Part shown: piece after piece, positions 42,242 through 49,640 of the stretch
How positions within the stretch are numbered: position 1 is the first letter of the stretch
Layout of the letters: every line of letters starts with the position of its first letter
Source: Amycolatopsis sp. FDAARGOS 1241
GTDB lineage: Bacteria > Actinomycetota > Actinomycetes > Mycobacteriales > Pseudonocardiaceae
DNA: 64,000 bases
Assembly: GCF_016889705.1 (NCBI RefSeq)
Contig: NZ_CP069526.1
Coordinates: 3,038,001-3,102,000 of the forward strand
Direction of reading: 5' to 3'
The notes under the pieces: model-generated
The model's database searches: none
What the model was told of the DNA's origin: nothing
Seen by the model: the letters and a program-made list of their open reading frames with translations, nothing else
Program-made: the position numbers and the translations under genes

Positions 42242-43411
42242 TTAATCCCCGAGGGCGGTCGAGGCCCAGCGGCCCAGGTCGTCGCGGCGCAGCGCCGCGG
42301 CCATGAGGTCCGGGAAGAGGTCGGGGGTGCAGGCGAAGGCCGGCACGCCGAGCTCGGCCAGGGCGGCCGCGTTGTCGTGGTCGTAGAAGGGTGCGCCCGA
42401 GTCGGACAGGGCGAGCAGGGTGACGACCTGCACACCCGAGCCGACCAGTTCGCCGACGCGGCGCAGCAGCTCCTCGCGCACGCCGCCCTCGTACAGGTCG
42501 CTGATGAGCACCAGCAGCGTCTGCTCGGGGCGCTCGACGAGCTGCTGGCAGTAGGTCAGCGCGCGGTTGATGTCCGTGCCGCCGCCGAGCTGGGTGCCGA
42601 AGAGGAGGTCGACGGGGTCGTCGAGGTGCTCGGTGAGGTCGACGACGGCCGTGTCGAACGCGACGAACTTCGTGCTCAGCGCCCGCATCGACGCCAGCAC
42701 GGCGCCGAACAGACCGGAGTACACCACCGACTCGGCCATCGACCCGGACTGGTCGACGGCGAGGATCACCTCGCGCTGCACGCTGTGCTGCCGCCGCCCG
42801 AAGCCGACGAGCTTCTCGGGCACGATGGTCTTCAGCTCGGGGGAGTAGTGCTTCAGGTTCGCGTGCACGGTGCGGCCCCAGTCGATGTCCGCGGCGCGCG
42901 GGCGTTGCGCGCGTGCCGCGCGGTCGAGCGCCCCGCGCACCGCCGCACGCGTCGGCTCGGCCAGCCGCGCCTCGAGCTCGGCGACGACCGTGCGCACCAC
43001 CGAACGTGCGGTTTCCTTCGTCTCCTCGGGCAGCACACCGTTCAGCGACAGCAGAGTGCCGACGAGGTGCACGTCCGGTTCGACGGCGCTCAGCAGCTCC
43101 GGTTCCATCAGCATGCGTGTGAGTCCCAGCCGGTCGACGGCGTCGCGCTGCATCACCTGGACCACGGACCCGGGGAAGTACCGGCGGATGTCGCCCAGCC
43201 ACCGGGCCACCCGCGGCGCCGACGCGCCCAGGCCGCCGCCGCGCCGGTCGCCGCTGCGGGGCTCTTCGCGCTGGTCGTACAGCGCCGCCAGCACGCCGTC
43301 CACGGAACCGTCCTCTTCGGACAGTGGGAACCCGGTGCCCTCCGCGCCGCTGCCACCGCCGAGCACGAGCCGCCAGCGGCGGAGCCGGTCGGGGTCGTTC
43401 GCCTGCGTCAT
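42242..43411 (-). CDS. VWA-domain protein of the MoxR/DUF5682 cluster
   Basis: The 389-residue protein has an alpha-helical N-terminal half and a von Willebrand A domain from about residue 210. The metal-site motif is complete in VDQSGSMAES (D-x-S-x-S), with the Thr in GGGTDINRAL and the Asp in VLISDLYEGG. VWA proteins next to MoxR ATPases are usually substrate adaptors in metal-dependent protein assembly. It is the last gene of a minus-strand series in which each start overlaps the previous stop (ATGA at 43408-43411). Stoichiometric production with DUF5682 is therefore likely. No membrane segment is seen. The target is unknown. Confidence 0.88.
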   Translation of the reverse strand: MTQANDPDRLRRWRLVLGGGSGAEGTGFPLSEEDGSVDGVLAALYDQREEPRSGDRRGGGLGASAPRVARWLGDIRRYFPGSVVQVMQRDAVDRLGLTRMLMEPELLSAVEPDVHLVGTLLSLNGVLPEETKETARSVVRTVVAELEARLAEPTRAAVRGALDRAARAQRPRAADIDWGRTVHANLKHYSPELKTIVPEKLVGFGRRQHSVQREVILAVDQSGSMAESVVYSGLFGAVLASMRALSTKFVAFDTAVVDLTEHLDDPVDLLFGTQLGGGTDINRALTYCQQLVERPEQTLLVLISDLYEGGVREELLRRVGELVGSGVQVVTLLALSDSGAPFYDHDNAAALAELGVPAFACTPDLFPDLMAAALRRDDLGRWASTALGD

Positions 43412-45588
43412 GACGGGGCTCCGATCAGGGTCGCGAGGACGGGCAGCGCGCTCTCCGCGCGGGTTTCGTCCACCTCGGCGGCGGGCCGGCGGTCCACCGG
43501 CGCCTTGCCGGACAACGTGGCCGCGCGTTCCCCGATGGCGCGCTTCTCCGGGCCGGCGAAGGCGCCGAAGGTGCGCCGCAGCAGGGGCAGCACTTCGGTG
43601 AACACGTCGGGCGGGATCGTGCCGAGCCAGGTGTCGACCACGCGCAGCATGCGTTCGTCGTGCACGAGCAGGAGCGCCCCGCCCGCGAAGAAGCCTTCCA
43701 CGTAGGCCGCGCCGCTCACCGGCGGAATACCCGGGGTGAGTGCGCGGCCGAGGCGCAGCTCGACCTCCGCGCTGTCGAACCGGTCGGCGTCGTGCAGCAG
43801 CCGCGCGACGCGCCCGGCCAGCAGCGGCGGCAGCGAATCGAGCCCGGACAGCCTCTCCAGCGCGACCAGCCAGCGCTCCCGCGCCGCGTCGCCGAGCAGC
43901 GTGGTGGCTTCGTGGACGTCGCCGACCAGCTCGCAGAACTTCGCGGCTGCTTCTTCGTCGATGCCGTGGGTCGCCGGCGGCAGGCCGGCGCACACCCGCA
44001 TGAGCATGCGGTCCGCGACCTCGCGCAGCCGGTCGGTGTCCGTGCCGCGGACGTCGCCGTAGCGCGTCGCGCGCGCCAGCGGCGGCAACGCGGCCATCAG
44101 TTCGGCGACGTCGGTCACGGCCGCCCTCGCGTCGAGCGCCCCGAGCACGTCGGGCAAGGCGTCGCCGAGGTCACCCAGCAGGCACCCTTCGACCGCCGTG
44201 GTGATGTCGGCCATCGGGGGATCGCTCGCCATCACTTCCCGCACCCGCGCGGCCGCGGCCGACGGCACGGTGGTGCCGTGCACACCGGCGGCGATCAGGT
44301 CGACTTCGTACTCCGGCTCCCAGCTCAGCGTCCACGTCTCGCGGAACGTGCCCTTGCTGCGCACGGCCGAGTCCTCCGGCAGCCCCCAGGGGATGTCGAG
44401 CATCAGGAGCCGGTGCAGCAGCCGCGACCGCTCGAGCCCGCCGGCGGTGCGCAGGTCGAGATCGAGCTCGCGCGTGGCCGGCTCGCGTTTGAGCCGCAGC
44501 CGCCGCGCGGTCGCGACCAGGTCGGCCGCCAGTGGCGCCTGCGGGACGCTCTCGGGCACCTCACCGAGAAGCTCGCCCACGACGAGCCGGCGCGTGACGA
44601 GGTCCGCCTGCACGTCGTCGCCCGCGCACAGCACCGCGCGCGTCGTCGCGTCGACCTCCGCCAGCCCGGCCGAGGACCGCCCGCGCAGCGCCGCCAGCGT
44701 TTCGGCGAGCCGCACGGCTTCGATCACGTGCGCGGTCGAAACCGGCAGGTCCTCCTCGCGCAGCACGCCCGCGACGGCGGTGAGCCAGCGCGTGGTGACG
44801 TCGTCGGCCGTGGTGAACAGGTGGTGGTACCAGCCGGGGGAGCGCACGCCCGCGCCGTAGCCGCTGGCCGTGGCGAGCCGGCCGTGGGTCCACGGCACCC
44901 ACGTGCACACCACCTTGCGCTTCGGGAGTCCTTTGAGGACGGTCTGGTCGCGGCTCGCCGGCGGCAGCGGGTCGGCCAGCGCGGGCACGTGCCACGCCCC
45001 GCACACGACGGCGATGCGTTCGAAGCCGTCCTTGCGGGTCTTGCGCAGCACGCCGCGCATGTAGGCCTCGCGGCGCTGCTCGTGCGGATCCGTCGGCTGT
45101 TCGCCCTCGCGCAACGCGGTCATCGCGTCGGCGATCACTTCGAACGGCGATTCGGCGCCGCGCCGCGATTCGATGACGTCGTCCCACCAGCGTTCCGGGT
45201 CGTCGTACCCGCCGGCGGCGGCGAGCTCCGCGAGCGGATCGGCGCGCGGCACGCGAGCCTCGCCGCCGGCCGCGAACTGGTGTGCGGCCGGCAGGTCGCA
45301 AAAGCGCACCGGCACGCCCTCCTCCGTGGCCCACCGCAGTGCTTGCCACTCGGGGCTGAACACCGCGAAGGGCCAGAACGCCGCGCGGGACACGTCGTCG
45401 GCCGCGTACGCGAGCAGCGCGACCGGTGGCCGCAGATCCTTGTCGGCGGCGAAGTCCACAAGGTTGTCGGCTTCCGGCGGGCCCTCGATGAGCACCACAT
45501 CGGGCTGCAGCTCGGCGAGCCGCCTGACCACCGCCCGCGCCGAACCCGGCCCGTGGTGCCGGATCCCGAGCAGGTGGGTGGTGGTCAT
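43408..45588 (-). CDS. DUF5682 protein, TraB/ChaN-like N-terminal domain (inferred)
   Basis: The 726-residue protein begins HLLGIRHHGPGSARAV, continues VVLIEGPPEADN near residues 33-44, and has VVCGAWHVPAL near 195-205. The pattern of early His-His, Glu-Gly-Pro, then Gly-x-x-His resembles the active site of the TraB/ChaN/EreA (Tiki) hydrolase superfamily. This is my inference from motif order. The C-terminal two thirds are helical and lack known motifs. It lies between MoxR and VWA genes with ATGA overlaps at both ends. DUF5682 seems restricted to this kind of cluster in my recollection. It could be the effector enzyme of the system. Confidence 0.85.
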   Translation of the reverse strand: MTTTHLLGIRHHGPGSARAVVRRLAELQPDVVLIEGPPEADNLVDFAADKDLRPPVALLAYAADDVSRAAFWPFAVFSPEWQALRWATEEGVPVRFCDLPAAHQFAAGGEARVPRADPLAELAAAGGYDDPERWWDDVIESRRGAESPFEVIADAMTALREGEQPTDPHEQRREAYMRGVLRKTRKDGFERIAVVCGAWHVPALADPLPPASRDQTVLKGLPKRKVVCTWVPWTHGRLATASGYGAGVRSPGWYHHLFTTADDVTTRWLTAVAGVLREEDLPVSTAHVIEAVRLAETLAALRGRSSAGLAEVDATTRAVLCAGDDVQADLVTRRLVVGELLGEVPESVPQAPLAADLVATARRLRLKREPATRELDLDLRTAGGLERSRLLHRLLMLDIPWGLPEDSAVRSKGTFRETWTLSWEPEYEVDLIAAGVHGTTVPSAAAARVREVMASDPPMADITTAVEGCLLGDLGDALPDVLGALDARAAVTDVAELMAALPPLARATRYGDVRGTDTDRLREVADRMLMRVCAGLPPATHGIDEEAAAKFCELVGDVHEATTLLGDAARERWLVALERLSGLDSLPPLLAGRVARLLHDADRFDSAEVELRLGRALTPGIPPVSGAAYVEGFFAGGALLLVHDERMLRVVDTWLGTIPPDVFTEVLPLLRRTFGAFAGPEKRAIGERAATLSGKAPVDRRPAAEVDETRAESALPVLATLIGAPS

Positions 45589-46670
45589 CCGCTGATCTCC
45601 TGCCCCGCGCGGTAGAAGTCGGCCCAGCCGTCGCGTTCGCGCACCACGGTCTCGAGGTACTCGATCCAGATCGCGCGGTCGGCGACCGGGTCCTTCACGA
45701 CAGCCCCGTGGATGCCCGCCGCGACGTCCTGCGCGCGCAGCACCCCGTCGCCGAAGTGCGCGGCCAGCGCGAGCCCACCGGTGAGCACGCTGATCGCCTC
45801 GGCCGTCGAGAGCGTGCCCGACGGCGTCTTCACGGCCGTGCGCCCGTCCTCGGTCCGGCCCGCGCGCAGCTCGCGGAACACCGTGACCACGCGGCGGATC
45901 TCGTTGAGCTCCACGGCTTCCGCGGGCAGCGCCAGCGACGCACCCAGCTGGGCGACGCGGCGGCTGACGATCTCCACCTCGGCGTCGGCGGTGTCCGGCA
46001 GCGGCAGCACGACGGTGTTGAACCGGCGGCGCAACGCGCTCGACAGCTCGTTCACCCCCTTGTCGCGGTTGTTCGCCGTGGCGACGAGCGTGAACCCGGG
46101 CCGCGCCTGCACCTCCGTGCCGAGCTCGGGGATCGGCAGGGTCTTCTCCGACAGGATCGTGATCAGCGAGTCCTGCACGTCGGCCGGGATGCGCGTGAGC
46201 TCCTCGAGCCGGGCGACCTTGCCGTCGCGCATCGCGCGCAGGATCGGGCTCTCCACGAGCGCGCGGTCGCTCGGACCTTCGGCGATCAGGCGCGCGTAGT
46301 TCCAGCCGTAGCGGATCTGTTCCTCGGCCGTGCCCGCCGTGCCCTGCACGAGCAGGGTCGAGTCGCCGCTGACGGCCGCCGAGAGGTGCTCGGAGACCCA
46401 CGTCTTCGCAGTGCCCGGCACGCCGAGCAGCAGCAGCGCGCGGTCGGTGGCGAGCGTGGCGACGGCGACCTCGATGAGCCGGCGCGGGCCCACGTACTTC
46501 GGGGTGATCTCGGTGCCGTCGGGCAGCGTGCCGCCCAGCAGGTACGTGACCACCGCCCACGGCGACAGGTGCCACGAAGGCGGCTTCGCCCGGTCGTCGG
46601 CCGCGGCGAGCGCGGCGAGTTCGGCGGCGTACTCCTGCTCGGCGTGGGGCCGGAGGACTGCGGGCGTCAT
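45585..46670 (-). CDS. MoxR-type AAA+ ATPase
   Basis: The 361-residue ATPase has Walker A in LLLLGVPGTAKTWVSEHL and the MoxR insert GWNYARLIAEGP. Walker B is in DGKVARLEELTRIP, sensor 1 in TLVATANNRDKG, and Arg-rich LSSALRRRFN follows. MoxR proteins use ATP to remodel protein or metal-cofactor complexes together with VWA partners. The gene overlaps DUF5691 upstream (46667-46670) and DUF5682 downstream by four bases. Walker B carries Glu-Glu in place of Asp-Glu, which may still bind Mg. Confidence 0.92.
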   Translation of the reverse strand: MTPAVLRPHAEQEYAAELAALAAADDRAKPPSWHLSPWAVVTYLLGGTLPDGTEITPKYVGPRRLIEVAVATLATDRALLLLGVPGTAKTWVSEHLSAAVSGDSTLLVQGTAGTAEEQIRYGWNYARLIAEGPSDRALVESPILRAMRDGKVARLEELTRIPADVQDSLITILSEKTLPIPELGTEVQARPGFTLVATANNRDKGVNELSSALRRRFNTVVLPLPDTADAEVEIVSRRVAQLGASLALPAEAVELNEIRRVVTVFRELRAGRTEDGRTAVKTPSGTLSTAEAISVLTGGLALAAHFGDGVLRAQDVAAGIHGAVVKDPVADRAIWIEYLETVVRERDGWADFYRAGQEISG

Positions 46671-48109
46671 GAGAGCTCCTCGTGCATTTCGCGGCGGAAG
46701 GTCAGGGTTTCGGCGACACCCCGCCGCCACGGGGCGGCCTCGCCGGGGTGCGGGATCGCGGTCAGGCGGTGGCGCAGGCACGCGGGTGGCACGGCTTTGG
46801 CGATGAGCGCGGCGGCGTGGGCCACCAGCCGGTGGTCCTGCTGCGCGGCGACCCAGTCGAGCAGCACGCGGCCCAGCTCTTCGGGCCACGGCTGCGGCAG
46901 GTCGAGGATCAGGCGCGTGAGCGCCTCGATCTTGAGGCCCCGCGCCAGTTTCGCGACGGTGGCGGCCTGCTTCGCCGGTGGCAGCACCCCGATCAGAGCG
47001 GCCGTGCCCCGGCTGCCGGGTTCGGCTTCGACGAGCGCCTGCGCCCACGCTTCGTCGCGCTGCCGGATCGCCGCCGTGGCCCAGCTCTCCCGGATGACCG
47101 CCAGCGGCGCGCCCTCCACGAGCAGGCCCACGAGATCGGCCGGTGTGCCGAACTCCGCCCAGAACGCCAGGGGAGTCGCGGCGACGATCGCCCGCAGCCG
47201 CGCCGTGTCCTGGCCCGGCCCGTGGGGCACGCGGACGCCGTCGCGCACCAGCGTTTCGTCGGCTCCGGGCGGGGTGAAGACCAGGACGCCCGCTCGCCGC
47301 GACCGCTGCCGCACGGTGACGCACTGGCGCAGGCGCGCCGCCATCCGCTCGCCGAACCCGGTGCCCGGCAACGCGCCCAGCAGCCGCACGGCCGTGTCCC
47401 GCACGGCGGCCGCGCGATCGCCGAGCGCCGCGTCGAGGAACCGCTCGTCGTCCGGGGTCAGGTGCCCGCCCAACAGCGTGAGGAACGTCGCCCGCAGGTC
47501 CGCCGGCTCGCTGCGCCACGTGGCCGTCAGCGCCTCCCGCGCGGCCGCCGGCTCCTTCGCCAGCGCGCGCTCGAGCCATGCCTGCCGCTGCGCCGGCGTG
47601 CCGTACTGCCACGCGTCGTCCCCGGCGTCGTCCGCCACCGCGACGAGGAACGCCCAGTCGGAGTTGCGCTCGCCCAGCCACGCACCGACCGGCCCCGCCA
47701 GCTCCGCCAGCGGTGCGCGCAGCGCCACCCGCGCCCGCGCGGCGTCGGCCAGCACCGGGATCTGCTCGGGCGCCACGCGGAAACCTCTGCGCGCCGCAGT
47801 CTGCAGCCACTCCTCCAGCAGTTCCGGGCGGTTGGTGTGCACCAGCCGCGCCAGCCGTTCCCGCGCCAGTGGCGGCACGAACGGTCGTGCGTCCGGTTTC
47901 GCCGGCTCTTCCCGGCGGATGCCGGTCAGCGGTTGCCGACCCGCGCGCCGGTAGTTGGTGAGCAGCGCCGCCGTGGTGAGCACGGCGTCGGCCTGGTCTC
48001 CGGGTCCACGCGCCACGGCGCGCACCGCGTCCGGGAGCCCGGACGGATCGAGGGCGCGGCGCCGGGTGCCGAGCAGCGCGGTGCCGACGAGGTCTTCCCA
48101 TGCCTTCAT
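46667..48109 (-). CDS. DUF5691 helical-repeat protein
   Basis: The 480-residue protein opens AWEDLVGTALLGTRRRALD and is almost entirely helical. Several stretches resemble HEAT-like repeats, for example LRATFLTLLGGHLTPDDERF and AAAVRDTAVRLLGALPG. It contains no catalytic motif that I can see, so a scaffold or substrate-recognition role is likely. Its stop overlaps the MoxR start, and its own ATG lies 50 bases after the SWIM gene. It therefore belongs to the same transcription unit. Confidence 0.82.
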   Translation of the reverse strand: MKAWEDLVGTALLGTRRRALDPSGLPDAVRAVARGPGDQADAVLTTAALLTNYRRAGRQPLTGIRREEPAKPDARPFVPPLARERLARLVHTNRPELLEEWLQTAARRGFRVAPEQIPVLADAARARVALRAPLAELAGPVGAWLGERNSDWAFLVAVADDAGDDAWQYGTPAQRQAWLERALAKEPAAAREALTATWRSEPADLRATFLTLLGGHLTPDDERFLDAALGDRAAAVRDTAVRLLGALPGTGFGERMAARLRQCVTVRQRSRRAGVLVFTPPGADETLVRDGVRVPHGPGQDTARLRAIVAATPLAFWAEFGTPADLVGLLVEGAPLAVIRESWATAAIRQRDEAWAQALVEAEPGSRGTAALIGVLPPAKQAATVAKLARGLKIEALTRLILDLPQPWPEELGRVLLDWVAAQQDHRLVAHAAALIAKAVPPACLRHRLTAIPHPGEAAPWRRGVAETLTFRREMHEELS

Positions 48110-48158
48110 CGGACGACCGCCGTCCGGAGTTCTTCGCGCGATGGCCGGGGGAGCACAG

Positions 48159-49472
48159 TCACAGGCGCACCACACCGTTCTGGTGCCAGCACGTGAGTGG
48201 ACGCAAGCCGGCGGACGTGAGCTCCGCGGCGAGTGTCACGGGGTGGTCGGCGGCGAGGGCGAGCAGCGGCCAGGGATCGGCCGAGGGCAGCAGGGGCAGC
48301 GCGGCACCGTCCACATCGGACAGGGCCCAGCCGTCGGGGTGACGGGCCGGGGTGAGGTCGGACAGGAGCACCGGCCAGCGGTCCAGCCACGGGTCCGCGG
48401 CGAGCGCGGCGGCGTGCGCGGCCAAGGCGCCCGCGACGGTGTCGCCGCGCGGAGCCGGGGTGGGCACGGCTTCGGTGCGGTCGGCTACGAGCGCCCGCAA
48501 CGGCAGCGCCCCCGGGTAGAAGGCGAGTTCACCCGGCACGACGTAACCGGGCGGCAGTGAGCTGTCGAGCGGCCGCCCGGGCGGGGCGAACGACAGGACG
48601 AGCGCCACGCGGCCGGAGTTGCGCCCGCGCAGCCACGTGCGGCGGCTGCGCAACGCGTCCTGCTCCTCGTCGACGGCACCGGCCACGAGCCACTGGTCGG
48701 CCACGCGCTCGCCCGACTCCAGCACCTGCGCCGTGCCCGCCGGGAAGCCCACGCGCGAGCGCACCGTGTCGGCCAGCCCAGCCGGCAGCTCGTCCAGCCG
48801 CGCCGCCGCCCCGGCGAGCACGTAGAGCAGCGCCAGTTCGGCCAGCAGCTCACCCGGCCAGTCGCGGCCACGGCCGATCAGCCCGGACGCGCGCCGCAGG
48901 CCGCTCGCCAGCCCCGGTGCCTGCGCGTCGACCATTCGCGCGGCGACCGCGCGCAGTTCGTCTCCACCGCCGCGTTCGAAGCCGGCGAACCCGGCGCCGA
49001 CGCGGTCGGTGAGCCAGCCGCGCAGCTCGGCCGCTCCTGCCGTGACGCGCGCGAGCCGTTCCTGCGCGCGCTTCGCCGCGGCTTCGAGGTCCTTCGGCCC
49101 GTCGGTCTTCCGCTCGGTGCGCGCCACCCGCGCGGAGCGCTCGTCGAGCCAGGCCCGCACGTGGTCGGGTTCGTCCGCGGCGTCGGGTACCTGCCCCGCC
49201 GACCACAGCAGCAACAGGCCCAGTGCGTGCTTGCACGGGAACTTCCTGCTGGGACACGAGCACCGGAAAGCGGGCCCGGCCAGCTCCACCGCCGTCTGGT
49301 ACGGCTTCGCGCCACTGCCCTGGCACGCACCCCACACCGCGCGCGCCGACGCGCCGGTGCGCGACCACTTCGCCGGCGTCGCGAGCCCGCGCCCAGCCTT
49401 GGCCGACGCCGGGTCCGGCGCCAGTCCGGCGACCCGCCCGGGGTCCCAGCGCGCTGCCACCTGTTCGGCCAC
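48159..49472 (-). CDS. SWIM zinc-finger protein heading the MoxR/DUF5682 cluster
   Basis: The 437-residue protein carries the SWIM motif C-x-C-x-n-C-x-H in FRCSCPSRKFPCKHALGLLL near residues 69-88. SWIM fingers bind DNA, RNA or protein. The remainder is helical and Ala-rich, with a C-terminal segment (RHPDGWALSDVDGAALPLLP) of unknown fold. The GTG start at 49472 has AAGGAA upstream. It is transcribed first and could direct the MoxR-VWA-DUF5682 machinery to nucleic acid. That idea is inference. Confidence 0.86.
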   Translation of the reverse strand: MAEQVAARWDPGRVAGLAPDPASAKAGRGLATPAKWSRTGASARAVWGACQGSGAKPYQTAVELAGPAFRCSCPSRKFPCKHALGLLLLWSAGQVPDAADEPDHVRAWLDERSARVARTERKTDGPKDLEAAAKRAQERLARVTAGAAELRGWLTDRVGAGFAGFERGGGDELRAVAARMVDAQAPGLASGLRRASGLIGRGRDWPGELLAELALLYVLAGAAARLDELPAGLADTVRSRVGFPAGTAQVLESGERVADQWLVAGAVDEEQDALRSRRTWLRGRNSGRVALVLSFAPPGRPLDSSLPPGYVVPGELAFYPGALPLRALVADRTEAVPTPAPRGDTVAGALAAHAAALAADPWLDRWPVLLSDLTPARHPDGWALSDVDGAALPLLPSADPWPLLALAADHPVTLAAELTSAGLRPLTCWHQNGVVRL

Positions 49473-49583
49473 GTTTTCCTTGCCGCTTCCGGTTTTCCGA
49501 CCCCTGGCGGGGCTGACCGGAAAAGCATCTCATCCGCCACCGACAGTTTCCGCCCGCACCGGCGCCCCGCTGAAAAACGCACA

Positions 49584-49619
49584 AAAACGCCGGGCCGCAG
49601 GGGAGCGGCCCGGCGTTTT
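49584..49619 (-). terminator. Intrinsic terminator of the sulfoquinovose synthase-like gene
   Basis: Arms of 15 bases (49584-49598 and 49605-49619) are perfectly complementary around a 6-base loop. The outer A-T pairs give a U-tract on both strands. It separates the upstream minus-strand gene from the SWIM cluster. Confidence 0.85.
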
Positions 49620-49640
49620 CAGCGTGCGGGAGCAAGCGCG

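Follow-up and report, generated by a model that had tools for sequence, protein, structure and literature searches.

What does the five-gene set SWIM-DUF5691-MoxR-DUF5682-VWA of Amycolatopsis sp. FDAARGOS 1241 do, and what switches it on? We examined the copy located in a 64,000-nucleotide (nt) stretch of contig NZ_CP069526.1 (positions 3,038,001 to 3,102,000, hereafter the window), for which an earlier sequence-only reading had proposed an ATP-driven remodelling machine with a possible role in conflict or stress. The answer that we favor, with moderate confidence, is a DNA-damage-inducible MoxR-VWA remodelling machine equipped with a hydrolase. Re-derivation from the sequence confirmed the five-gene system where that reading had placed it, on the minus strand from 49472 to 42242, and all five proteins exceed the cut-off for their Pfam domains; NCBIfam gave no model at cut-off for any of them. 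The elements on which the argument draws are the following.

49582 to 49621, minus strand: terminator-like hairpin with a T run, 17 pairs, between the upstream gene and the operon
49524 to 49546, minus strand: RecA-NDp (PafBC-type) motif CTGTCGGTG-N8-GATGCT, 10 of 12 consensus positions, 51 nt 5' of the SWIM start
48159 to 49472, minus strand: SWIM zinc-finger protein, 437 amino acids, GTG start (Pfam SWIM, 25.3 bits)
46667 to 48109, minus strand: DUF5691 protein, 480 amino acids, probable HEAT-type alpha-solenoid scaffold (Pfam DUF5691, 401 bits)
45585 to 46670, minus strand: MoxR-type AAA+ ATPase, 361 amino acids (Pfam AAA_5, 133 bits)
43408 to 45588, minus strand: DUF5682 protein, 726 amino acids (Pfam DUF5682, 888 bits)
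42242 to 43411, minus strand: VWA (CoxE-like) protein, 389 amino acids (Pfam VWA_CoxE, 183 bits)

RecA-NDp sites were scored against TTGTCRGTG-N8-TANNNT, which we take to be the consensus and which was fixed, with 12 scored positions, ahead of counting. In 150-nt windows, 63 of 71 loci score at least 9 of 12 (4.0% of 20,547 random slices of the same loci), 40 score at least 10 (0.56% of slices), 17 at least 11 (0.11%) and four the full 12 (0.01%). Wider windows, reaching 350 nt upstream and 30 nt downstream of the SWIM start, contain a site of at least 10 in 40 of the 71 loci, against 1.8% of 14,200 random slices. Because the loci are related to one another, genus counts are the better guide, and a score of at least 10 occurs under 18 of 29 genus labels, three of which are not proper genus names. 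One locus (L156) scores 6 in its 150-nt window because its start is misplaced, and an 11/12 site lies further on.

The strongest single promoter result comes from Streptomyces, where the five genes form two divergent units, SWIM-DUF5691 and MoxR-DUF5682-VWA, in all eight genomes, with a 12/12 motif before the first unit and an 11/12 motif before the second in every one of them. These eight are all the genomes of their genus (assigned as Streptomyces because the closest relatives of one of the SWIM proteins, that of L151, are so named) with a match in our phylum sample of 296 genomes, drawn across the phylum with the window's own genome included, and no genome of this genus is listed without one. 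In three of them (L148, L150 and L155) the second-unit site lies beyond the 150-nt window from the nominal MoxR start.

The motif class itself is real in the Amycolatopsis genome: the strict motif occurs 37 times in 9.8 megabases, against once for the reversed pattern, and the window's own form, with ATNNT in the second element, occurs 25 times against one reversed. Ten of the 18 scanned genes that start at most 70 nt from a strict motif are repair, replication or proteasome-ATPase genes. These ten encode DinB, UvrA, a dGTPase, a clamp of DnaN type, a glycosylase resembling AlkA (below its family cut-off), two PDDEXK_1 nucleases, an RNase_T exonuclease that also has GIY-YIG, an AAA_21 ATPase that matches SMC/RecF marginally and an Mpa-type proteasome ATPase. 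The open reading frame (ORF) of the proteasome ATPase starts 3 nt after a strict motif (L130), a site that suggests a possible link of the damage response with the Pup-proteasome. Two WYL matches at G000:C1:4288950 and 4289951 lie on the same strand as a Pup-ligase-family gene (4292642-4293901), about 2.5 kilobases (kb) away, and by position and family this pair is probably PafB and PafC. Four further strict motifs of the same genome (L120, L123, L135 and L145) are much alike (TGTCGGTGGTGGCCG/A-type) and have no good ORF downstream; they may represent a repeated element, or else RNA genes driven by this type of promoter.

These counts also bear on a more mundane explanation, in which the motif is merely the general shape of strong, near-leaderless promoters in high-GC actinobacteria and the operon serves ordinary protein quality control as a housekeeping function. 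The frequent abutment of motif and start codon would suit such a reading, as would the eight of the 18 scanned motif genes that are not obvious repair genes, which also count against the damage-inducible reading. Against the housekeeping explanation, other gene starts in the same loci score at least 9 in 28 of 567 cases and at least 10 in only six, the whole genome holds just the 37 strict places, rich in repair genes, and both units of the split Streptomyces set carry the motif. We consider the housekeeping explanation very unlikely.

Several further observations count against damage control of the operon. The passages cited here name RecA-NDp without printing its letters, the window's own site lacks the first T of each element, and eight of the 71 loci score below 9. 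Among the 17 phylum-sample loci with a SWIM gene the motif is weak or absent in six: L160 and L163 score 6 and 7, L159, L161 and L162 score 9, and L164 reaches 10/12 without TGTC. A palindrome of the SOS type was found at the operon start in L039 only. The operon is also uncommon, with DUF5682 in 21 of the 296 phylum-sample genomes, and, according to the cited passages of PMC9380542, S. venezuelae seemed on a first search not to have conserved the PafBC motif of M. smegmatis. Taking both sides together, we regard PafBC-type control of the operon as very probable on the motif evidence, we infer that DNA damage would induce it in this organism, and the promoter evidence argues that damage may be the signal in many actinobacteria that carry it. 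The suggestion of a stress role is thereby supported in a specific form that the sequence-only reading had not proposed, namely a DNA-damage (PafBC/RecA-NDp) promoter motif.

Whether the five genes form one functional unit was assessed from their arrangement. Three 4-nt ATGA overlaps connect the DUF5691, MoxR, DUF5682 and VWA genes and a 49-nt gap separates SWIM from DUF5691, in keeping with the packing described earlier. A hairpin scan of the region returned three sites against 2.1 expected in shuffles; the site at 49621-49582, judged on its 17 pairs, is a predicted terminator-like structure that sets the operon apart from the upstream gene. About 70 nt past the VWA stop (42173-42051, minus strand) lies a 40-residue, cysteine-free ORF that by eye is ribosomal protein L36-like (rpmJ-like), and this gene could share the operon transcript.

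A DUF5682 scan of genome contigs yielded 80 loci, a non-random sample of the best-scoring relatives, all of them actinobacterial because the scan kept only the top scorers. All five genes occur in the same order and strand in 75 of these, and in the remaining five (L046, L050, L058, L065 and L075) a contig edge has cut off one of the end genes. In the phylum sample DUF5691 exceeds the cut-off in 18 genomes, all of which also carry DUF5682, at most about 3.3 kb away; DUF5682 is found in 25 genomes of a relatives set of 40 (own genome included). The genes are thus not found mostly apart, and the idea of a single conserved gene set is borne out. SWIM and DUF5691 are moreover one ORF in 10 of the 80 loci (Nocardia, Phytohabitans, Asanoa, Symbioplanes and Actinoplanes), and Pfam finds both domains in the two fused ORFs checked (L072 and L090). 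Gene order, overlaps and fusions together argue for one machine, and we hold it probable that the five proteins work jointly; a complex made in fixed ratio, as first proposed, may also exist, an idea helped by the natural SWIM-DUF5691 fusions.

The five-gene order extends to Deinococcus taeanensis, Hymenobacter and Rhizobium; in the first two, MoxR and DUF5682 are separated by an additional ORF of small or medium size. Methylosinus has the first four genes and no annotated VWA gene, in a gene table that leaves out pseudogenes. Of the two Hymenobacter records, one begins with a single ORF in which Pfam finds DUF5691 only; the other is annotated with separate SWIM and DUF5691 genes and with DUF5682 in three pieces. 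Two Kribbella DUF5682 proteins (P0077 and P0118) bear the UniRef name 'BREX-2 system phosphatase PglZ', apparently a wrong label assigned automatically. Among 50,697 phage records the sole DUF5682 match, at 28% identity, is L176 (MT835988.1), an unannotated 14-kb fecal scaffold marked UNVERIFIED.

The individual proteins retain the residues expected from the canonical MoxR, MIDAS and SWIM motif definitions. The SWIM finger is present as CSC-x6-CKH at residues 71-82. The ATPase has a Walker A sequence GVPGTAKT, a sensor ATAN and an arginine finger ALRRRF, and its Walker-B Asp is, by eye, apparently replaced by Glu (LEEL, with FEEI in YehL); the VWA protein carries MIDAS-type motifs DQSGS, GGTD and ISD. 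With these motifs intact, the two can be read as an AAA+/VWA pair, as had been suggested. DUF5691 is probably a HEAT-like scaffold, as judged from modelling.

The putative effector is DUF5682, in which an N-terminal domain (approximately residues 1-240) is followed by C-terminal helical repeats. Residues H11/H12, E35, R173 and G197-x-x-H200 lie in TraB-like order, a correspondence to the canonical TraB motifs that was judged by eye, and H11/H12, E35, R173, G197 and H200 are invariant both in 60 and in 12 sequences. The TraB-like motif order noticed earlier stands, moderately backed by fold comparison, in which the N-terminal domain is a candidate TraB/TIKI fold. Other comparisons weigh against that assignment: Pfam TraB matched none of 16 DUF5682 members, hhalign against a narrow YbaP profile gave 1.6%, Foldseek against the PDB returned no match under 1e-3, and the BFVD match has a TM-score by target of only 0.37. 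DUF5682 further differs from the TraB/TIKI superfamily (YbaP, TRABD, Tiki and the erythromycin-esterase relatives) in its long helical-repeat C-terminus and just ahead of its first His: where RRSP, whose catalytic set is 2His/2Glu in the cited passages of PMC6254334, has a second catalytic Glu two positions before that His, DUF5682 has I9 or R10. That DUF5682 is a working peptidase we regard as doubtful.

Combining one machine, a damage promoter and the client remodelling typical of MoxR-VWA pairs, the most likely action would be on a protein at damaged DNA, with DUF5682 hydrolyzing it. In actinobacteria the PafBC (RecA-NDp) pathway would switch the operon on once single-stranded DNA accumulates. 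The VWA protein would engage the MoxR hexamer in the fashion of NorQ/NorD or RavA/ViaA, and the ATPase would then pull or twist the client, while SWIM, held on the DUF5691 scaffold, would recruit the machine to nucleic acid or to some protein bound on it. DUF5682, as a TraB/TIKI-fold hydrolase on a helical-repeat arm, would act on the client, most likely by peptide-bond cleavage, or might alternatively be switched on by the remodelling. We infer the nucleic-acid target and the hydrolysis from the parts, and that the machine acts on a DNA-bound protein is a tentative step, somewhat short of an even bet. A more specific version is DNA-protein-crosslink repair, in which SWIM would find the trapped protein, MoxR-VWA unfold it and a TraB/TIKI-fold peptidase cut it, with DUF5691 or DUF4132 as interchangeable companions and PafBC, LexA or perhaps DdrO as the local damage regulator; such a system would be an unrelated counterpart of the eukaryotic p97-SPRTN pathway, and we rate this version as unlikely.

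The same components could be read as an anti-phage or conflict system, in which the machine senses invasion and a DUF5682 effector harms the infected cell or the invader; damage control would fit such a suicide-type response. MoxR-vWA conflict systems exist (cited passages of PMC7159879), the ATPase weakly resembles bpMoxR (24.7 bits, cut-off 27), the Iodobacter set sits on a mobilizable plasmid near type I restriction-modification genes, and WYL regulators also govern phage defense (cited passages of PMC10693628). Against these points, four of the proteins (SWIM, DUF5691, DUF5682 and VWA) went unmatched in PADLOC 2023 (E <= 0.01), where the ATPase drew just 14.4 bits, to RtcR_PspF1, a CARF/AAA regulator model, and the text of the 2020 paper PMC7159879 mentions neither SWIM, DUF5682, DUF5691 and TraB nor YehL and WGR. 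The genes flanking the operon are common to related Amycolatopsis loci, on one side in eight of nine and on the other in four of nine, and the operon therefore lies in no visible island there; its promoter, too, is of the DNA-repair type. The conflict role offered by the sequence-only reading is accordingly not upheld, and we judge an anti-phage system improbable.

A second arrangement of the genes, with DUF4132 and no DUF5691 gene, is found in E. coli K-12 (yehI...yehLMPQ, with yehF and yehH), Allorhizobium, Iodobacter and a plasmid copy in E. coli, and a Streptomyces plasmid has the same type plus a large 'DNA-binding protein'. The window's MoxR, DUF5682 and VWA proteins are 41% (over 359 columns), 29% and 37% identical to YehL, YehM and YehP, respectively, and the SWIM protein YehQ belongs to the same cassette; VWA, DUF5682 and SWIM genes alongside MoxR are likewise the context of the YehL subfamily. 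Unlike the window, the E. coli order is MoxR-DUF5682-VWA-SWIM, YehQ is not alignable to the window's SWIM protein by blastp, DUF5691 was not found in the E. coli control genome, and the DUF4132 protein YehI and yehF (PF05406, which we take to be WGR; yehF is presumably the gene called molR) lie upstream. A chromosomal-type stretch from yehI to mlrA also occurs on a conjugative E. coli plasmid (L174, NZ_CP103756.1); the part read has an annotated IS26-family transposase at one of its edges.

The damage connection beyond the PafBC motif is uneven. Scored against the LexA and RDRM consensus letters, a box starting 27 nt before yehF scores 13/20 and a site within yehM 14/20, Deinococcus taeanensis reaches only 12/17 of RDRM, and no convincing LexA-type box was seen in Rhizobium, Methylosinus, Allorhizobium or Iodobacter, all of which counts against the damage-inducible reading. 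Because the yehM site outscores the yehF box, it is the published assignment that carries weight, in which E. coli molR is listed as LexA-regulated (cited passages of PMC11039860 and PMC4576408). In Deinococcus radiodurans, depleting DdrO raises a WGR gene and a DUF4132 gene (cited passages of PMC8533742).

Twelve further MoxR-DUF5682 loci were read (L166, L167 and L181-L190). In six of them a RecA-NDp site scoring 11/12 or better is found at the operon start or close to it. Two of the six, L187 and L188, are of the DUF4132 type. In L189 the site precedes a SWIM-like ORF by 21 nt, and in L182 by 43 nt. For L181 and L186 the ORF filter missed the first gene, and their sites are placed by analogy with L182 and L189. 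Four (L183, L185, L190 and L167) have no site of at least 10 near the operon start, which again counts against the damage-inducible reading; a 10/12 site in L184 is of uncertain placement relative to the first gene, and L166 ends at a contig edge. L181, L182, L184-L186 and L189 represent a third MoxR-DUF5682-VWA arrangement, which is common in the genus of the window. Its DUF5682 is divergent, scoring about 100 bits, and the first protein of L182 and L189 is SWIM-like; several of these loci start behind a RecA-NDp motif.

Membership of the VWA protein in the VWA_CoxE family points to one more explanation, a chaperone that matures a metal or cofactor enzyme, as NorQD does for the iron of NOR or CoxD for CO dehydrogenase, with the E. 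coli branch tied to the old molR/molybdate link. Twisting of the NorD linker is the proposed means by which NorQD makes metal insertion possible (PMC13036017), the CO dehydrogenase cluster needs CoxD (PMC3893208), and molR was named for molybdate use (a title cited in PMC8533742), each in the passages cited. The annotated regions read show no metalloenzyme recurring next to the operon, single regions having some metalloproteins (such as the ferredoxin and desaturase in Rhizobium) and the window's own neighbours being judged by eye, and in the cited passages of PMC8533742 Deinococcus moeA and moeB were unresponsive while DUF4132/WGR genes responded; the promoter type is a further point against it. 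We find a maturation chaperone distinctly improbable.

MoxR-VWA systems and the YehL subfamily are already known (cited passages of PMC3893208). DUF5682 was not found in the open-licence literature and DUF5691 does not occur among the open-licence literature matches listed; the damage promoter, the split Streptomyces layout, the TraB-like fold and the DUF5691/DUF4132 exchange were not found in the literature searched, which covers few subscription journals. For a gene set that extends from E. coli K-12 to Amycolatopsis and for which we found no function, a damage promoter in several arrangements offers a first testable one. If true, the damage-inducible machine would link genome maintenance with the MoxR-VWA class, familiar so far chiefly from enzyme maturation, and would give concrete structural roles to DUF5682 and DUF5691.

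Set beside known systems, the operon resembles the PafBC regulon of mycobacteria in its promoter motif, in the WYL pair near a Pup-ligase-family gene and in the repair genes that bear the motif; it differs in that the cited passages do not name it as a member, PafBC having been studied there in mycobacteria and not in Amycolatopsis. In M. smegmatis without pafBC, MoxR1, MoxR2 and a von Willebrand protein are lower (cited passages of PMC5656591). With the MoxR-vWA ternary conflict systems it shares adjoining MoxR and vWA genes, unlike them scoring below the bpMoxR cut-off and having different further components. From NorQ-NorD and RavA-ViaA it is set apart by three more conserved proteins and by the lack of a recurring respiratory client nearby; what it has in common with both is a MoxR AAA+ ATPase and its VWA partner encoded in one operon.

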